A stretch of DNA of 25,596 nt from a virus, in IMG/VR virus record IMGVR_UViG_3300043499_000120, positions 1 through 25,596 of that record. One strand, 5' to 3'. Numbering within the stretch: position 1 is the first letter of the stretch; each line of letters begins with the position of its first letter. Of this stretch, positions 2,102 through 13,853 are shown piece after piece. Under the pieces are notes generated by a model. It saw nothing but the letters and a program-made list of their open reading frames with translations. It searched no databases and was not told the DNA's origin. The position numbers and the translations under genes were made by a program.

Positions 2102-4057
2102 ATGTTGAACCGGGCATACGCCCTGCTTGAAATCAAGCAGGTGGACCAGGACGCGCGCACCATCACCGGCATGGCATCGACGCCGACGCCGGATCGGCTC
2201 GAGGATGTGGTCGAGCCGGACGGCGCGCAGTTCAAACTGCCGTTGCCTTTGCTGTGGCAACACGACTCAGGCAATCCGATCGGCCAGGTCACGCATGCCA
2301 AGGTCAGCAAGGCCGGCATCGAGATCGTTGCCAGAATCGCCAAGGGCGTGACGGACGAAATCGATCGGGCCTGGGCGCTGATCAAAGCCGGACTGGTTCC
2401 CGGCCTTTCGATCGGCTTCAAGGCGATCGAGCATGAGTTCATTACTGAAACGAAGGGAATCCGTTTCATCAAATGGGACTGGCTCGAGCTTTCCGCCGTG
2501 ACGATTCCGGCGAACCAACAAGCCACCATCGCGACCATCAAATCGATCGACACAGCGCAGCGGGCCGCGTCCGGCCAAGCAAAGCCGCGTCGTGTCGTTC
2601 ATCTCAACCCACCCGGCGCCTCGGGATCATCGCAACCGAAGTCTGTTGCCCAGGAGGGCGCCATGAAAACCATTGCCGAGCAAATTACTGCGCTCGAGTC
2701 CAAGCGATCCGCGAGTGCGGCGCGCATGGAAGCCGTGATGCAAAAGGGTCTCGACGAGGATCGCACCTCGGACGCGGGCGAGCAAGATGAGTTTGACAAC
2801 CTCTCGTCCGAGGTCGAGGCGCTGGACAAAGACCTTGTGCGGCTGCGCAAGATCGAGCAGGCCAAGGCGTTTGCAGCCAAGGCGGTGAAGGGCGAGAGGA
2901 CCGACGACGGGGTTGCCGCGCGCAGCGGCATCATCAGCGTCAAGGCACCGCCGAAGCTTCAGCCGGGTATTGGTTTCGCGCAAAGGCTCAGATGCGAAAT
3001 CCTCTCGCATCGACAATACCGCCCCGCGGGCGATATCGCTACGGAACTGTACGGACCAGACAGTCCGGTAACGCTTGAATTGACTCAAAAGGCCAACGTC
3101 GTAGCGGGCTCAACGATCTCTGGTAACTGGGCCGCTAATCTCGTGAGCTTGGAAGGTGGCACCGCTCAAGATTTTATCGAATGGTTGCGGCCGCAAACGA
3201 TTCTCGGTCGGTTCGGCCAAGGAGGCGTCCCGTCACTGCGTAATGTCATGTTCAATGTGCCGATGATTGCGCAAACCGCTGGCGGTGCTGCTTGGTGGAC
3301 CGGGGAAGGAAAGGCGAAACCGCTCACTGCGTTCGCCTTCACTCGCACAACGCTGGCGCCGCTCAAGGTGGCGACCATCTGCGTTCTCACCATGGAGTCG
3401 GTGAGATTTAGTTCGCCCAAGTCGGATACGATCGTTCGCGATCAGCTGGGAGCGGCGGTCAGAGAGCGGATTGATATCGACTTCATCACGCCGTCGAAGG
3501 CGGCAGTGGCGGGCATCTCGCCGGCCTCGATCACCAACGGTGCGGCAACGATCGTATCGTCGGGTGACGATGCCGATGCAATCCGGGTCGACATTCGATC
3601 TCTCATAGCCAAGTACACGGCCGCCAATAATCCCCCAACAAGCGGCGTGTTCATCATGGGATCGACCACTGCGGGAGGGCTTGCATCGCTGACCAACCCG
3701 CTCGGCCAGCCGGAATTCGCCTCCATGTCATTCACTGGTGGAACACTTTTCGGCTACCCGGTGATTGTCAGCGATTATGTCCCTGCAGGCATCGTTGCAT
3801 TGGTCAATGCGTCGGACATCTATCTGGCGGATGATGGTGAGGTGTCGGTCGATTCCAGCACGGAGGCTTCGCTCGAGATGACCGATGCGCCGACAGGTTC
3901 ATCGATCACACCAACAGCAACGTCGCTTGTCTCGATGTACCAAACGAACTCAATCGCCGTGCGCGCCGAACGGGTGCTCAACTGGGCTCGTCGCCGGACG
4001 CAGTCGGTTGCCTATCTCACCAGCGCAGACTGGGGCGGACCCGTCCACACCGCCTAG
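2102..4057 (+). CDS. Prohead protease-major capsid protein fusion (HK97 type)
   Basis: One uninterrupted 651-residue frame joins two proteins that HK97 makes separately. Residues 1 to about 150 are an S78-family prohead protease: His54 in LLWQHDS, Ser103 in GLSIGF and Glu129 in WDWLELSAV match the order and spacing of the HK97 gp4 catalytic set. Residues about 150-187 are a Pro/Ser/Gly linker. From Met188 comes a charged, coiled-coil-like delta (scaffold) domain to about 265, then the HK97-fold shell, with WWTGEGKAKP and GYPVIVSDYVP typical of phage capsid proteins. The protease normally removes the delta domain after assembly. A strong internal ribosome binding site before Met188 suggests a separate 464-residue capsid protein is also made. 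GAGG at 2090-2093 precedes the first ATG. Identification is strong; the expression model is inference. Confidence 0.94.
   Translation: MLNRAYALLEIKQVDQDARTITGMASTPTPDRLEDVVEPDGAQFKLPLPLLWQHDSGNPIGQVTHAKVSKAGIEIVARIAKGVTDEIDRAWALIKAGLVPGLSIGFKAIEHEFITETKGIRFIKWDWLELSAVTIPANQQATIATIKSIDTAQRAASGQAKPRRVVHLNPPGASGSSQPKSVAQEGAMKTIAEQITALESKRSASAARMEAVMQKGLDEDRTSDAGEQDEFDNLSSEVEALDKDLVRLRKIEQAKAFAAKAVKGERTDDGVAARSGIISVKAPPKLQPGIGFAQRLRCEILSHRQYRPAGDIATELYGPDSPVTLELTQKANVVAGSTISGNWAANLVSLEGGTAQDFIEWLRPQTILGRFGQGGVPSLRNVMFNVPMIAQTAGGAAWWTGEGKAKPLTAFAFTRTTLAPLKVATICVLTMESVRFSSPKSDTIVRDQLGAAVRERIDIDFITPSKAAVAGISPASITNGAATIVSSGDDADAIRVDIRSLIAKYTAANNPPTSGVFIMGSTTAGGLASLTNPLGQPEFASMSFTGGTLFGYPVIVSDYVPAGIVALVNASDIYLADDGEVSVDSSTEASLEMTDAPTGSSITPTATSLVSMYQTNSIAVRAERVLNWARRRTQSVAYLTSADWGGPVHTA
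2652..2665 (+). promoter_or_regulatory. Internal ribosome binding site and ATG for free capsid protein
   Basis: AGGAGGG at 2652-2658 lies four bases before an in-frame ATG at 2663-2665 (codon 188 of the fusion). This is one of the best Shine-Dalgarno matches in the window and falls exactly at the boundary between protease linker and capsid delta domain. It would give a 464-residue capsid protein, the usual size for HK97-fold proteins that keep a delta domain. Confidence 0.75.
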
Positions 4058-9521: not shown

Positions 9522-10154
9522 ATGAGCGATCACTCGACGATCCCTGCGCCGCAATACACCTGGAACGAGGCCATCGGCGTTTGCCTAGCCCTGTGCCAGC
9601 GCGCCCTGGCCGAGGTGCGAGCATTGGCGCGTATGCCGGGGCCGCCGGGCGATACCGGCCCAGAAGGCAAGCGTGGGCTGCAAGGTGGGCGCGGCGAGAA
9701 GGGCGAGCGCGGCGAGCCAGGCAAGCCTGGTGCCATGGGGCCGGCCGGCCTCGACGGCAAGAACGGCGAGCGCGGCCAGAAGGGCGAGCCCGGCCGCAAC
9801 GCCGCGGATCTGACCTACCTGCAGGACTATGCCGCCGAGCAGGTCGGGCGCGCGTTCAAGACCGCCACCGTCACCACGCCGGACGGCGGCCGCACCCTGC
9901 GCTGGGCGATCGGCGACACCGTGCATGAAATCAAGACCGCCATCGTTCTCGATGCTGGAGTGTGGAAGGAGGGCACGACCTATGCCGCCGGCGACGGCGT
10001 CACCCTTGGCGGCTCGTTCTTCATCGCCCAGGCCGAGACCAGCGCCAAGCCCGGCAAGTCGGACGACTGGCGCCTCGCCGTCAAGCGCGGCAGCGACGGC
10101 CGCGACGCCAGGCCAGATGAGAAACGCGCGCTCGAACCGCTCAGGTTCAAATAA
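9522..10154 (+). CDS. Collagen-like protein with carbohydrate-binding-like C-terminus
   Basis: The 210-residue protein has a 39-residue helical N-terminus, 18 consecutive Gly-X-Y triplets at residues 40-93 (for example [13 protein letters not shown]), a helical or beta linker (94-145), and a C-terminal segment at 147-188 with [20 protein letters not shown] and a final DDW. That Trp/Tyr-Gly pattern resembles the small chitin-binding CBM5/12-type fold found on phage surface proteins. The likely architecture is a trimeric collagen stalk ending in a sugar-binding tip. ATG at 9522 follows GGGCAAGGGG. Its TAA overlaps the ATG of the connector gene (TAATG). Virion surface display and glycan binding are inferred; the collagen repeat is directly visible. 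Confidence 0.82.
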
Positions 10155-10774
10155 TGCATTCCATTCTCGAAATCCTCAGCGAGTCGACCGACAGCGCCGG
10201 TCCCGATCTGATCAGCCTCGACGACCTCAAGTTTGCGCTCGGCATCGAGGGCACCAGCGAGGACGCGGCACTGCAGGCCGCCATCACGCTGCAGTCACGC
10301 ATCATTGCAGAATATTGCAACCGCCGTTTCGGCCTGGCCGAGGCGCTCGAGACCTTCACCTTCGATCGCAATGAGAACATGCTGCCGCGGCAGGCGCTGA
10401 CGCTGTCGCTCTATCCGGTGATCGAGATCGCCGAAGTCTCGACCGCGGGCGCAACCGCCGCCGACTATGAGTTCGATCCCGACAGCGGCCGGCTGTGGAC
10501 CGGCGGTTGTTGGGCGGAAACTGTCGTCGCCGTGCTCTATTCAGGCGGCTACGATCTGCCGGAACAGGCGCCGGCCCGGCTGCAGCAGGCGATCATCCAG
10601 GCGGTGAACGAGGGCCGCACGTCGGGCACGCGCGATCCCAGCATTCGCGAGGTGCAGCATGGCGATACCCGCGTCAGCTATTTCACCTCGTCGCTGTCGA
10701 CCGCGTCATCGGGCTACCTGTCGGCAGCCGTGGCCAATCTGATCCAACCTTATCGGCGCCTCTATGTCGCGTGA
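10154..10774 (+). CDS. Head-tail connector (gp6-like adaptor)
   Basis: A 206-residue protein of the phage head-tail connector class, which binds under the portal ring. The N-terminal LISLDDLKFALGIEGTSEDA and the following AALQAAITLQSRIIAEYCNR are the helical bundle pattern of HK97 gp6-like adaptors: a short LDDLK-L segment, an acidic turn and a long helix ending near Cys-Asn-Arg-Arg. A beta-rich middle (about 70-130) and a C-terminal helix follow, including the typical LPEQAPARLQQAIIQAV. The start overlaps the previous stop. The next recognisable neck genes (13049 and 13398) are separated from it by a sugar/methyl-transfer cassette. Family assignment is good; length is at the upper end for the family. 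Confidence 0.85.
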   Translation: MHSILEILSESTDSAGPDLISLDDLKFALGIEGTSEDAALQAAITLQSRIIAEYCNRRFGLAEALETFTFDRNENMLPRQALTLSLYPVIEIAEVSTAGATAADYEFDPDSGRLWTGGCWAETVVAVLYSGGYDLPEQAPARLQQAIIQAVNEGRTSGTRDPSIREVQHGDTRVSYFTSSLSTASSGYLSAAVANLIQPYRRLYVA

Positions 10775-10785
10775 AGGAGGGGGTT

Positions 10786-10944
10786 ATGCCAAGAGGACAA
10801 CATGGTCCGTCAATCAAGAATCCGGCGTGTTATGAGGCACTGAGACGCAAAGGCAAGAGCAAGTCCAGTGCTGCGGCGATTTGCAATGCAGCCTTGAACA
10901 AGGGCTATCGCAAGGGTGTCCACAGGAGCAGGCGACGCAAGTGA
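10786..10944 (+). CDS. Small basic protein of unknown function (52 residues)
   Basis: The ATG at 10786 has a very strong ribosome binding site, AAGGAGGGGG at 10774-10783. The product begins MPRGQHGPSIKNPACYEALR, continues RKGKSKSSAAAICNAAL and ends in a cluster of Arg/Lys. Short proteins with a KNP..YEALR.KG.SKS.AAAI.N pattern occur in many phages and plasmids; I know no function for them. The strong positive charge suggests nucleic acid contact. The TGA overlaps the GTG start of the following gene (GTGA), so it may also serve to deliver ribosomes into the sugar-modification genes. Confidence 0.75.
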   Translation: MPRGQHGPSIKNPACYEALRRKGKSKSSAAAICNAALNKGYRKGVHRSRRRK

Positions 10945-11573
10945 CGTTCTGGTCGGTCCCGCGCGAATGGCCAGGCGAAACCGTGTTCATCGTCGGCGGC
11001 GGGCCGTCGGTGCTCGGGGTCGATCTGGAGGCGCTGCGCGGACGGCGCGTGATCGCGATCAACTCCAGCGTCCACAAGATGCCATGGGCGGACATCCTCT
11101 ACTTCGGCGACTGGCGCTGGTGGAACGAGCCCGACAACCGGGCGGCGGTTGCGAGCTTCCGCGGCCGCGTCGTCACCACCTCGCGCATGTGCTCGGAAGA
11201 TAAGAAAGTGCTGATGTGCCGCGCCGCCAAACCGCCGGGGCTTGCGCTCGCGCACGACGGCCTGATGCAGAAATGGACCTCGCTGACGGCGGCGACCAAC
11301 CTGGCGGCGCATCTCATCGGGCCGGGCGGCACCATCGTCTGGCTCGGCGCCGATGGCCGGCTCGCTGCCGACGGCCGCAGCCATCATCACCAGCCGCATC
11401 GCTGGCCGCACCGGCCCGGCTGTTACGACAAGCAGCACGCCGACCTGGTGACGATCGTGCCGTCGCTGCGGACGCTCAAGATCGCGGCATACAATGCCTC
11501 GCCGGGAACAGCGTGGGCCGATCTGCTTCCGGTCATCAGCCTGCAGGATGTCCTTGAACGACGCGCGGCGTAA
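10941..11573 (+). CDS. DUF115/MptE-like sugar-related protein
   Basis: From the GTG at 10941, overlapping the preceding stop, this is 210 residues. Residues 13-24 (ETVFIVGGGPSV) form a glycine-rich nucleotide-binding-like loop; residues 34-40 (GRRVIAI) and 48-56 (PWADILYFG) continue a Rossmann-like core. This layout resembles the DUF115 family, related to archaeal MptE pyrophosphokinases and to bacterial motility-accessory-factor glycosyltransferases that move nonulosonic acids onto flagellin. A His-rich stretch (GRSHHHQPHRWPH) lies in the C-terminal third. With a GT9-like protein and a methyltransferase directly downstream it likely acts on a sugar or nucleotide sugar. An ATG further upstream at 10881 lies inside the preceding gene and is less likely. 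Substrate unknown. Confidence 0.7.
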   Translation: MTFWSVPREWPGETVFIVGGGPSVLGVDLEALRGRRVIAINSSVHKMPWADILYFGDWRWWNEPDNRAAVASFRGRVVTTSRMCSEDKKVLMCRAAKPPGLALAHDGLMQKWTSLTAATNLAAHLIGPGGTIVWLGADGRLAADGRSHHHQPHRWPHRPGCYDKQHADLVTIVPSLRTLKIAAYNASPGTAWADLLPVISLQDVLERRAA

Positions 11574-12453
11574 GCCGGTCCTCATCCGGGGGATGTACGG
11601 GCTCGGCGACAATGTATTCCAGCGGCCGTTCGTGCGCGCGGCAGCGGCGCAATACGAGATCCATCTCGAGACGCCATGGCCCGAGCTCTACGCCGACCTC
11701 GATATCAAGTTCGTGCGCGGCGGACGAAAGCTGCGGACGCAACAGAAGAACATGGCGCGGCAACCGGCGGATCTGTGGTCGCGACGGTTGGTGCCGATGC
11801 GCGAGGTCAAGGTCGGATATGGCGCCGATCTGACGCATGCCTCGATCATCACTGCGCTCGAGCGTCGATGGTCGGTGCTGAAAGTCGCCTTCGATCCGGC
11901 GCTGTTCGATCTGCCGGACATGGGCGCATCGCCGGTGGTCTCGGAGCGGCCGATCGCGGTCATCCGGCCGGTGACGGTGCGCAGCGAATGGCGCAACGAG
12001 GCGCGCAACCCGCGGCCGGAATACATCGCTGACCTGGCGCACGAGCTGATGGCGACCCATACCGTCGTTGCGGTTGCCGACATCGTGCCCGACCAGGAAT
12101 GGGCGGTGGGCGAATTGCCGCCGGCGCATCGCTATTTCGTGTTCGGCGAACTGGCGGTGCGCGAGCTGCTCGCCCTGGTGCGCGACGCCGACATCGTCAT
12201 CGGTGGCGTCGGCTGGATCGTCCCGGCGGGGCTTGCGCTCAAGGTCAAGACCTTCGTGGTGCTGGGCGGCCACGGCGGCCACAACGCACCCGCCAAGATC
12301 ACCGACCCGCGGCTCGATCTCAGCCGGATCGGGTTTGCCGTCCCGGAGAACTTTTGCCGATGCACGAATATGTTGCACAACTGCGACAAGAGGATCGCCG
12401 ACCCCGTCGGGCAGTTCCATCGCTGGTCGCGCAGTTCTCGCGCGGCCGCCTGA
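11548..12453 (+). CDS. GT9-like glycosyltransferase
   Basis: From the ATG at 11548 this is 301 residues, overlapping the previous gene by 26 bases in another frame. The start PVLIRGMYGLGDNVFQRPFV is the N-terminal GDN-type loop of glycosyltransferase family 9 and heptosyltransferase-like proteins (GT-B fold). A second Rossmann domain is suggested by PIAVIRPVTV and by DADIVIGGVGWIVPAGLAL followed by KTFVVLGGHGG, where the nucleotide-sugar donor would bind. Near the C-terminus a Cys-rich segment (FCRCTNMLHNCDK) could bind a metal. Heptosyltransferases normally build LPS core; a phage copy could modify a virion protein or the host surface. The last 31 codons overlap the methyltransferase gene in another frame. 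Activity and acceptor unknown. Confidence 0.75.
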   Translation: MSLNDARRKPVLIRGMYGLGDNVFQRPFVRAAAAQYEIHLETPWPELYADLDIKFVRGGRKLRTQQKNMARQPADLWSRRLVPMREVKVGYGADLTHASIITALERRWSVLKVAFDPALFDLPDMGASPVVSERPIAVIRPVTVRSEWRNEARNPRPEYIADLAHELMATHTVVAVADIVPDQEWAVGELPPAHRYFVFGELAVRELLALVRDADIVIGGVGWIVPAGLALKVKTFVVLGGHGGHNAPAKITDPRLDLSRIGFAVPENFCRCTNMLHNCDKRIADPVGQFHRWSRSSRAAA

Positions 12454-13052
12454 CCTGGTGGCCGGAGCTCGGCATCGGCCACTATCCGGTCGAGGCCGGG
12501 TTTGCGCCCTACGATCAGGGGTACTTCGATAGTTTCGATCGCAATGCGCAGACCGATCTCGGCCGCGCGCTGATGCAGGCGCGCTGCAATTTTGTCGAGC
12601 AGCATTACAGGGGAGCACTGGTCGATGTCGGTATCGGCTCGGGTGCGTTCATCGAAGCGCGGCGAGCGCGCCACCGCACAACCTATGGCTACGACGTCAA
12701 TCCCGCCGGCATCGCCTGGCTCGAGCAGCGGATGCTGCTGGTCGATCCGCATCTGGTTTCGTTCGATGCTGCAACACTGTGGGACGTGCTCGAGCATATC
12801 CCGGATTTTCAGTCGCTCCTGGCCAATGTGAAGGAGTGGGTGTTTACGTCCTTGCCGATCTTCCGCGACGCCGAGCATGCGCTGTCCTCCAAGCATTTCA
12901 AGCCGGACGAGCATTGCTGGTACTTCACCCGCGACGGGCTGGTGGTCGCGATGAACCTGTGCGGCTTCGCGCTGGTGTCGGAAAGCACGATCGAGACCGA
13001 GCTCGGCCGCGAGGATATCGGGACGTTCGCGTTCCGCAGGGAATGGCGATGA
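12360..13052 (+). CDS. SAM-dependent methyltransferase
   Basis: A 230-residue class I methyltransferase. Motif I is VDVGIGSGAF (residues 88-97), the acidic end of strand 2 is in YGYDVNP (109-115), and the motif with WDVLEHIPD (141-149) is typical of small-molecule methyltransferases, including those acting on sugars. FTSLPIF and a C-terminal GTFAFRREW complete the fold. The ATG at 12360 overlaps the end of the glycosyltransferase gene by 94 bases; the conserved-looking part begins near LTWWPELGIGHYPV (residues 31-44), so translation could start slightly later, but no better start codon is seen. It probably methylates the sugar handled by the two upstream enzymes, although protein methylation cannot be excluded. 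Its stop overlaps the next gene's ATG. Confidence 0.83.
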   Translation: MHEYVAQLRQEDRRPRRAVPSLVAQFSRGRLTWWPELGIGHYPVEAGFAPYDQGYFDSFDRNAQTDLGRALMQARCNFVEQHYRGALVDVGIGSGAFIEARRARHRTTYGYDVNPAGIAWLEQRMLLVDPHLVSFDAATLWDVLEHIPDFQSLLANVKEWVFTSLPIFRDAEHALSSKHFKPDEHCWYFTRDGLVVAMNLCGFALVSESTIETELGREDIGTFAFRREWR

Positions 13053-13405
13053 TCGACTATAGCGCGCTGCTATATGACCCGGTCTATGCCGAGATCGGCG
13101 TGCCGGCGACGCTGACCGCGGCCGGAACGGCGGGCGAGGTCGCGCTCACCGTGATCGACGACACCCGGCCGAAGACACAGACGAGTAGCACCGTGGAAGT
13201 GCGCAGCGTCGGGCCTGGTGCCTATGCCCGCATCCCGGAACTCGCCGGCAACGGGATTGCACGCGACGATTACACGGATGCAGTGCTGATGTTCAACGGC
13301 CGATCCTGGGTTGTGCGTTCATACGAAATACGCGGTAGCCCGAATGGTGAGGATGCCGGCGAGGTGCGGTTCCTGTTGAAGGCTATCGAGTCCACCAATG
13401 GCTGA
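13049..13405 (+). CDS. Head closure or stopper-like neck protein
   Basis: A 118-residue protein starting at ATG 13049, overlapping the methyltransferase stop (ATGA); an in-frame ATG at 13043 is an alternative but lies directly on the AGGG ribosome binding site. The sequence is mostly beta: DYSALLYDPVYAEIGVPATL at the start, EVALTVIDDT, then VRSVGPGAYARIPEL and a closing SWVVRSYEIRGSPNGEDAGE followed by VRFLLK. This is the pattern of small neck proteins lying between connector and tail terminator, which plug the portal channel after packaging. Position between the connector and the tail terminator supports that. The exact family is not certain. Confidence 0.7.
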   Translation: MIDYSALLYDPVYAEIGVPATLTAAGTAGEVALTVIDDTRPKTQTSSTVEVRSVGPGAYARIPELAGNGIARDDYTDAVLMFNGRSWVVRSYEIRGSPNGEDAGEVRFLLKAIESTNG

Positions 13406-13853
13406 TGTTCGCGAGGACATCCTGGCGCGGCTGCTCGAGGTAGTCGCCACCATTCCGAATATGCGATCCGCGTATCGCAACAATGTTGATATCCCGGAAG
13501 ATCAGTTGCCGGCGGTGATCGTGCTCGACGGCGACGAGGACTCCGATGGCGCGAATGACGTGTCAATGAAGCAGCCGCATCGGCCATACAATGTGCAGAT
13601 GACACCTGAGATCATCATAGCGCAGCAGGCCGACGAGGTTGGTTCCGACTTAACAACGCTGCGGCGCGAACTGATCAAGCGGGTGCTAATGGATGTCGAG
13701 CTTAACCAGCAGATCGTGAAGACGGGGCGCTACGGCAACGGGGCGATCCGCTACCTCGGATGTCAGACCGATCTCGGTTGGATGCGTTCGCTGCATGGAG
13801 CGCTGCGGGCGCAGTTCCTGTTCAAGTACACACTCCGGCCAGACGATCTCTAG
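13398..13853 (+). CDS. Tail terminator/tail completion protein
   Basis: A 151-residue protein that overlaps the previous gene by eight bases. It opens with a helix (DVREDILARLLEVVATIPNM), followed by LPAVIVLDGDEDSD, then NVQMTPEIIIAQQ, and a helix TTLRRELIKRVLMD. That helix-strand-strand-helix order matches lambda gpU-like and related tail terminators, which cap the growing tail tube and join it to the head. It lies directly before the tail tube gene, the usual place. No catalytic motif is expected. The assignment rests on predicted fold pattern and position, not on strict motifs. Confidence 0.75.
   Translation: MADVREDILARLLEVVATIPNMRSAYRNNVDIPEDQLPAVIVLDGDEDSDGANDVSMKQPHRPYNVQMTPEIIIAQQADEVGSDLTTLRRELIKRVLMDVELNQQIVKTGRYGNGAIRYLGCQTDLGWMRSLHGALRAQFLFKYTLRPDDL

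Follow-up and report, generated by a model that had tools for sequence, protein, structure and literature searches.

A cassette of predicted glycosyltransferases and a methyltransferase occupies an exchangeable slot among phage head-tail genes

IMG/VR record IMGVR_UViG_3300043499_000120 (25,596 bases, here called the window) is a fragment of a tailed-phage genome in which three plus-strand genes with overlapping frames, A, B and C, lie between a head-tail adaptor gene and a putative head-closure gene. Sugar modification is the best-supported predicted function of this trio. We propose that A-B-C is a dispensable and exchangeable late glycan-modification cassette whose likeliest acceptor is a virion protein, a reading to which we give slightly less than even weight. 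The genes, whose overall extent (10941-13052) and overlapping frames the first-pass annotation of the window had given correctly, are as follows.

Gene A, 10941..11573, plus strand: Maf/CstII-like (MptE-like, DUF115 superfamily) protein of 210 amino acids with a GTG start, named from phrog_4603 and a predicted model.
Gene B, 11548..12453, plus strand: GT-B fold, GT9-like putative glycosyltransferase of 301 amino acids, named from phrog_6804 and a predicted model.
Gene C, 12360..13052, plus strand: class I S-adenosylmethionine (SAM) methyltransferase of 230 amino acids with an ATG start, named from Methyltransf_23 and phrog_6564.
GGAGA, 12345..12349, plus strand: probable ribosome-binding site of C, within B, read from the sequence.

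The best evidence for function comes from what replaces the trio in related phages. Viral contigs were searched with the major tail protein of a relative lacking B and C, which avoided choosing loci by the trio itself, and 52 loci with both flanks were recovered; many viral contigs are near-copies of one another, which inflates the raw counts. The slot held A-B-C in 17 loci, A-B'-C' (with a diverged B and a substitute methyltransferase) in 12, mixtures in five, A alone in one and none of these in 17. Judged by tail-protein similarity there are about 27 distinct lineages (A-B-C about 10, A-B'-C' seven, mixed three, A-only one and trio-less five). On a tree of the adaptor, tail-terminator and tail-tube proteins the slot changes state at least 11 times, at least three of them between trio-bearing and trio-less. 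Exchanges of B and C leave A in place.

One pair of loci displays such an exchange directly. L274, which carries A-B-C, and L278 are 97-99% identical over most of the stretch that runs from portal to adaptor and includes the collagen-like gene. From the end of the adaptor gene L278 has about 621 nt instead of the 2,143 nt holding A-B-C in L274; from the next gene onward the two are again alike (86%). The insert encodes one 208-amino-acid protein that matches phrog_1962 ('glycosyltransferase', E 5e-29), has a DLD motif and gives a weak Glyco_transf_8 match; the same lone glycosyltransferase is found in L282, L284 and L287. Because an unrelated sugar transferase replaces the trio, sugar transfer is probably the function for which the slot is selected. 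The unrelated enzyme accounts for four of the 17 trio-less loci; the other 13 contain nothing recognised or only an 81-amino-acid membrane protein, which suggests that the function is dispensable. Neither A nor B was found elsewhere in seven slot-empty contigs (up to 48.6 kb, possibly fragments), which rules out for these two genes that the trio had merely relocated within those seven contigs.

Several further arrangements of the slot were observed. In many relatives the 81-amino-acid predicted membrane protein (L252:6963-7205 and homologues) stands between adaptor and cassette or is the only gene of the slot; the window carries a DUF7218 protein at that place. In the A-only relative (L138:6200-8153) a long collagen-type tail-fibre reading frame makes up the rest of the slot. 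L255, on the contig of L066, has A-B-C'-C and a second short B-like fragment, an apparent recombination intermediate between cassette types.

The first-pass annotation had named the three products DUF115/MptE-like, GT9-like and SAM methyltransferase, and it had proposed predicting the structures of the first two and surveying the co-occurrence of the genes. The predicted folds of A and B and the Pfam match of C agree with these names; the folds are those of relatives of sugar enzymes, although fold likeness is no proof of activity. The assignment of C as a class I SAM methyltransferase is solid at the level of sequence: C matches Pfam Methyltransf_23 (E 4.8e-13; 49.6 bits against a cut-off of 27) and phrog_6564 (E 1.7e-62), and the D-x-G-x-G-x-G SAM motif is kept in seven of seven homologues. 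C' belongs to a different family, Methyltransf_24 (E 8.2e-12), so the methyltransferase role would be retained by an analogue.

Gene A matches phrog_4603, labelled 'alpha-2,3-sialyltransferase' (E 7.6e-20). None of the curated sugar-enzyme families of Pfam and NCBIfam, Pfam MptE-like included, was matched by the window protein, and homologues in the phages Eowyn (E 4.9e-7) and P1 (E 5.7e-5) match MptE-like under its cut-off. PDB sequences searched with A and B, as profiles or as single sequences, gave nothing useful, and the structural relatives came from folds only. For this comparison, AlphaFold2 models of A and B were built from relatives in viral contigs. The A model (pLDDT 89.9, pTM 0.90) has its best match in the central domain of Maf, a flagellin glycosyltransferase (5mu5; Z 15.3, 189 of 210 residues, 3.5 Å), followed by the CstII and Cst-I sialyltransferases (Z about 11), archaeal MptE-type HPPK (Z 10.4) and thiamine pyrophosphokinases (Z 9-10). 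Matches outside the Maf/CstII (GT42)/MptE-like superfamily fall to Z 5, and the predicted fold is common to A and this superfamily over most of the domain. In Foldseek, CstII is matched with a probability of 1.00 and a TM-score of about 0.5, a result used together with the VIA alignment. NADP-dependent reductases led by Foldseek E-value and were rejected as relatives of A, their TM-scores being near 0.3. A G-G-x-S motif, N41, D57, S114 and H149 are invariant in the family and would be compatible with the active site of the predicted glycosyltransferase.

Gene B matches phrog_6804, listed as of unknown function (E 2.5e-100). The window protein again matched none of the curated Pfam or NCBIfam sugar-enzyme families, Glyco_transf_9 included, and Eowyn B meets Glyco_transf_9 at E 0.069, under the cut-off. 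The B model (pLDDT 91.8, pTM 0.90) has TibC (4rap) as its best match (Foldseek E 2.6e-9; Z 18.5, 254 residues, 2.9 Å), tied with the GT9 structure 3tov (Z 18.3) and followed by WaaF (16.7) and WaaC (16.3), while other GT-B enzymes reach at most 10.7. By its model, B has a GT-B fold nearest to GT9 enzymes. Across 41 relatives, diverged B' included, the following are invariant or nearly so: D21 in a GLGD loop, R-T-Q, R140-P141, R145, E147-W148 and a C-terminal CxC..HxC. In TibC, D110 is the base, T226 and K230 sit at the donor phosphate and four Cys hold iron (PMC4358343). By sequence pattern the invariant D21 fits the catalytic Asp of the N-lobe, and the pattern T143-x3-E147-W148 would place the invariant E147 of B where TibC has its phosphate-binding Lys, a correspondence of motifs and not a residue-level superposition. 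Since this apparent Glu for Lys suggests another donor or chemistry, we name B GT9-like and do not file it as a GT9 or TibC-type heptosyltransferase.

The trio stays together in unrelated phages and prophages. It occupies the same place in the published genome of Pseudomonas phage PAJU2 (gp10-gp12); in Pseudomonas phage D3 (orf7, orf12, orf13) B-C are at that place and A lies about 1.3 kb upstream. Profile searches found all three genes in phages Mulvp2, Psp6 and Eowyn (a jumbo Klebsiella phage) and in prophage-type loci of Mesorhizobium, P. mendocina, Pantoea agglomerans and P. ananatis, and dozens of contigs share the gene order. BUCT-ZZ01 carries B-C, and the stretch of it that was examined showed no A. 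In PACT201 (L008, 3480-7390) A, B and C are broken into several frames, by decay or sequencing errors. B relatives occur in at least 358 stretches of the viral-contig collection. A B profile run against 385 alpha- and 369 gammaproteobacterial genomes returned only two seed genomes already known and one marginal match (E 8e-4), and a scan of genome contigs with B, of low sensitivity, gave two loci only. B thus appears nearly restricted to phages and, judged by gene content, A-B-C is a real, mobile and phage-restricted module. The first-pass annotation had placed the cassette within the neck genes, but a special tie to the neck is not borne out by this distribution: the trio lies between lysis and terminase genes in the Pantoea agglomerans prophage, runs B-C-A in P. 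ananatis and stands apart from recognised virion genes in Eowyn. That annotation had also stated that no characterised system is known to have this trio in this place. As far as the literature was searched, this holds for function, since no paper on the trio was found and none reports a function for its genes in PAJU2 or D3; the same genes in the same place were already present in PAJU2 and, rearranged, in D3.

The window is ordered terminase, fused protease-capsid protein, portal, adaptor, tail terminator, major tail and tape-measure genes. The immediate neighbours of the trio are listed here.

Head-tail adaptor, 10154..10774, plus strand: phrog_442 (E 3.2e-27) and Pfam Phage_connect_1.
DUF7218 protein of 52 amino acids, 10786..10944, plus strand: Pfam DUF7218 (E 1.2e-15).
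Putative head-closure protein, 13049..13405, plus strand: named by position only; conserved after the slot in relatives.
Tail terminator, 13398..13853, plus strand: phrog_4204 (E 4.5e-4).

The placement between connector and head closure given by the first-pass annotation is supported on the upstream side by phrog_442. On the downstream side it rests on position: gene 13049-13405 has no family match in Pfam or PHROGs searches and is labelled head closure because it stands before the tail-terminator gene. The start of A overlaps the DUF7218 gene by GTGA, A and B overlap by 26 nt, B and C by 94 nt, and the stop of C overlaps the next gene by ATGA (13049-13052). The GGAGA lies about 10 nt upstream of the ATG at 12360, which is the only standard start codon ahead of the conserved domain of C. 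Against 11 relatives pN/pS is 0.12-0.42 for A, 0.25-0.38 for B and 0.10-0.38 for C, similar to the structural neighbours; A, B and C are under purifying selection like the virion genes around them. Elsewhere in the window, 2102-4057 encodes prohead protease and major capsid fused in one protein of 651 amino acids (phrog_80 and phrog_617 matches), annotated alike in PAJU2.

Sugar modification expressed with the late genes, which the first-pass annotation had suggested, is supported by the folds, the operon position and the exchange at the slot. We envisage three soluble enzymes acting in the host cytoplasm. A (Maf/CstII-like) and B (GT9/TibC-like GT-B) would transfer sugars from host nucleotide-sugar donors, and C would methylate a sugar hydroxyl, perhaps as a cap. 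The likeliest acceptor would be a virion protein, modified before or during assembly so that the particle surface is changed. We favour such an acceptor because the enzymes look soluble, sit among virion genes and resemble Maf and TibC, both of which add sugars to Ser/Thr of proteins (PMC11339370, PMC4358343). Particle glycans are known in mycobacteriophages (Freeman et al. 2023, as cited in PMC11256854 and PMC12619734). More tentatively, A-B-C may be a compact, soluble phage system for protein O-glycosylation, in which a short glycan, assembled on virion proteins in the cytoplasm by the Maf-like and TibC-like transferases, is capped by the methyltransferase; the system would be one of several interchangeable cassettes of a late-operon slot, with P1 pmgO, pmgP and pmgQ on the same theme.

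The first-pass annotation had offered the nearby collagen-like protein as a target. This is unsupported, because relatives without the trio retain the gene: it is present in nearly all those whose contig covers the region, and in one pair its stretch is 97% identical with and without the trio. The collagen-like protein was accordingly rejected as acceptor for want of any association with the presence of the trio. No protein of the window stands out as a Ser/Thr-rich acceptor. The collagen-like protein itself (9522-10154) matches in residues 135-196 the C-terminal end of a portal family (phrog_1289, E 3e-18) and, over the same residues, gives a weak CBM_5_12 match (E 0.0011).

Several points weigh against our proposal. 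We infer the enzymatic activities, the order of the steps, the donor sugars, the methyl target and the virion acceptor. The apparent Glu in place of the TibC Lys suggests that B may differ in donor or chemistry from ADP-heptose transfer. The locations in Eowyn and Pantoea are away from virion genes, PHROGs classes the alternative glycosyltransferase of the slot under moron/host takeover, and no direct discriminator separates a virion glycan from a host glycan. The last two points bear on the main rival, which we consider unlikely: that the cassette alters a host surface glycan (lipopolysaccharide core, O-antigen or exopolysaccharide), late in infection or from a prophage, and so blocks re-adsorption to debris or superinfection. 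WaaC and WaaF, heptosyltransferases of the lipopolysaccharide core, do belong to the fold family of B, and temperate phages or prophages are found among the carriers several times. However, the genes are co-translated with virion genes and not with lysogeny genes, no membrane segment is predicted in A, B or C, the cassette has no flippase or acyltransferase partner, and in many lineages the slot lies inside the head-tail gene block.

It is improbable that A is a pyrophosphokinase-like or nucleotidyl enzyme (MptE/HPPK) that activates a small molecule from which B and C make a diffusible or cofactor-like product. The matches of A to HPPK and thiamine pyrophosphokinases, and the Pfam name of its family, MptE-like, would suit such a role, but A matches Maf with a clearly higher score, a glycosyltransferase takes the place of the trio in L278 and the partners of A in other phages are glycosyltransferases. 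In Tetraselmis virus S20 the region from capsid to head closure holds two A-like genes, GT-D and GT2-type glycosyltransferases, a methyltransferase and a PmgQ-like gene. In CcrColossus a tail gene is followed by A, a putative nucleotide-sugar transferase, a methyltransferase and a protein that scores above the Glyco_transf_9 cut-off.

More improbable again is that A is a genuine morphogenetic factor, with a role in head-tail joining, and that B and C are riders. The names of the P1 genes pmgO and pmgP, which like pmgQ are annotated putative morphogenetic, would fit, as would the constancy of A, its neck position and the occurrence of A-like proteins where B and C are missing (P1 PmgO; locus L216). 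P1 PmgO belongs to the A family (phrog_4603, E 4e-74), PmgP is likewise A-like, though diverged, and PmgQ is a homologue of the lone glycosyltransferase of L278. Yet all three P1 genes are nonessential for plaques by CRISPR interference (relative plating 1.1, 0.72 and 1.4) and in the earlier deletion analysis tabulated in the same paper (PMC10695390). In addition, trio-less relatives keep the adjoining virion genes, the seven slot-empty contigs mentioned above have no A or B elsewhere, and the predicted fold of A is that of glycosyl- and pyrophosphoryl-transferases. In P1 (L291:5941-8499) the three genes resemble sugar-transferase-type rather than assembly genes, and ppp lies between pmgP and pmgQ. 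Least credible is hypermodification of phage DNA with a methylated sugar: virus-encoded DNA-modifying glycosyltransferases are known (Pyle et al. 2024, as cited in PMC12619734), but a hydroxymethylase of the thymidylate-synthase family is missing from all 14 trio-bearing records examined, among them four isolate genomes, which makes this role unlikely, and the fold matches are enzymes of protein and lipid glycans.

Phage-encoded glycan modification is known as a kind, and the module was present in published genomes with no recognised function; its combination of genes, the way it is exchanged and its probable fold relatives are undescribed as far as the searched literature shows. To our knowledge, glycans on tailed-phage particles have been shown for few phages only. 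The module is present in the genetically tractable phages PAJU2 and D3, and genes of the A family in P1. If our proposal is right, the frequency and purpose of particle decoration (escape from recognition, adsorption or stability) become directly testable, and the 'putative morphogenetic' pmgO, pmgP and pmgQ gain a candidate function. The results also suggest that a much wider phage family stands behind the database name 'alpha-2,3-sialyltransferase'.

Compared with known systems, A shares its predicted fold with Maf 5mu5, CstII and Cst-I, corresponds to the central domain alone (210 amino acids) with no sequence similarity detectable, and is a putative catalytic equivalent. B has in common with TibC and the GT9 enzymes WaaC and WaaF the predicted GT-B fold, and its GLGD loop, judged by sequence pattern, may supply the N-lobe Asp; a Cys cluster lies at its C-terminus. 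It aligns to TibC residues 95-394 and lacks the N-terminal beta-barrel (residues 1-97), and in place of the four-Cys iron finger it has a conserved CxC-x4-HxC near the C-terminus, with different spacing. In the mycobacteriophages (Che8 and relatives), the cited accounts describe phage-encoded glycosyltransferases together with glycans on virion proteins. In Maravista the glycosyltransferase genes lie close to the 3' end of its genome, unlike the slot in the window (PMC11256854). No mycobacteriophage was among the listed matches of our protein searches in annotated phages, which were aimed at another question. The P1 block pmgO-pmgP-ppp-pmgQ shares A-like genes and PmgQ with the families of the slot; no B or C homologue was found in it, and it includes a protein phosphatase gene. 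PAJU2 and D3 come closest: their head-tail gene block contains homologues of A, B and C (27%, about 50% and about 40% identical to those of the window) and, in PAJU2, the protease-capsid fusion upstream as well.

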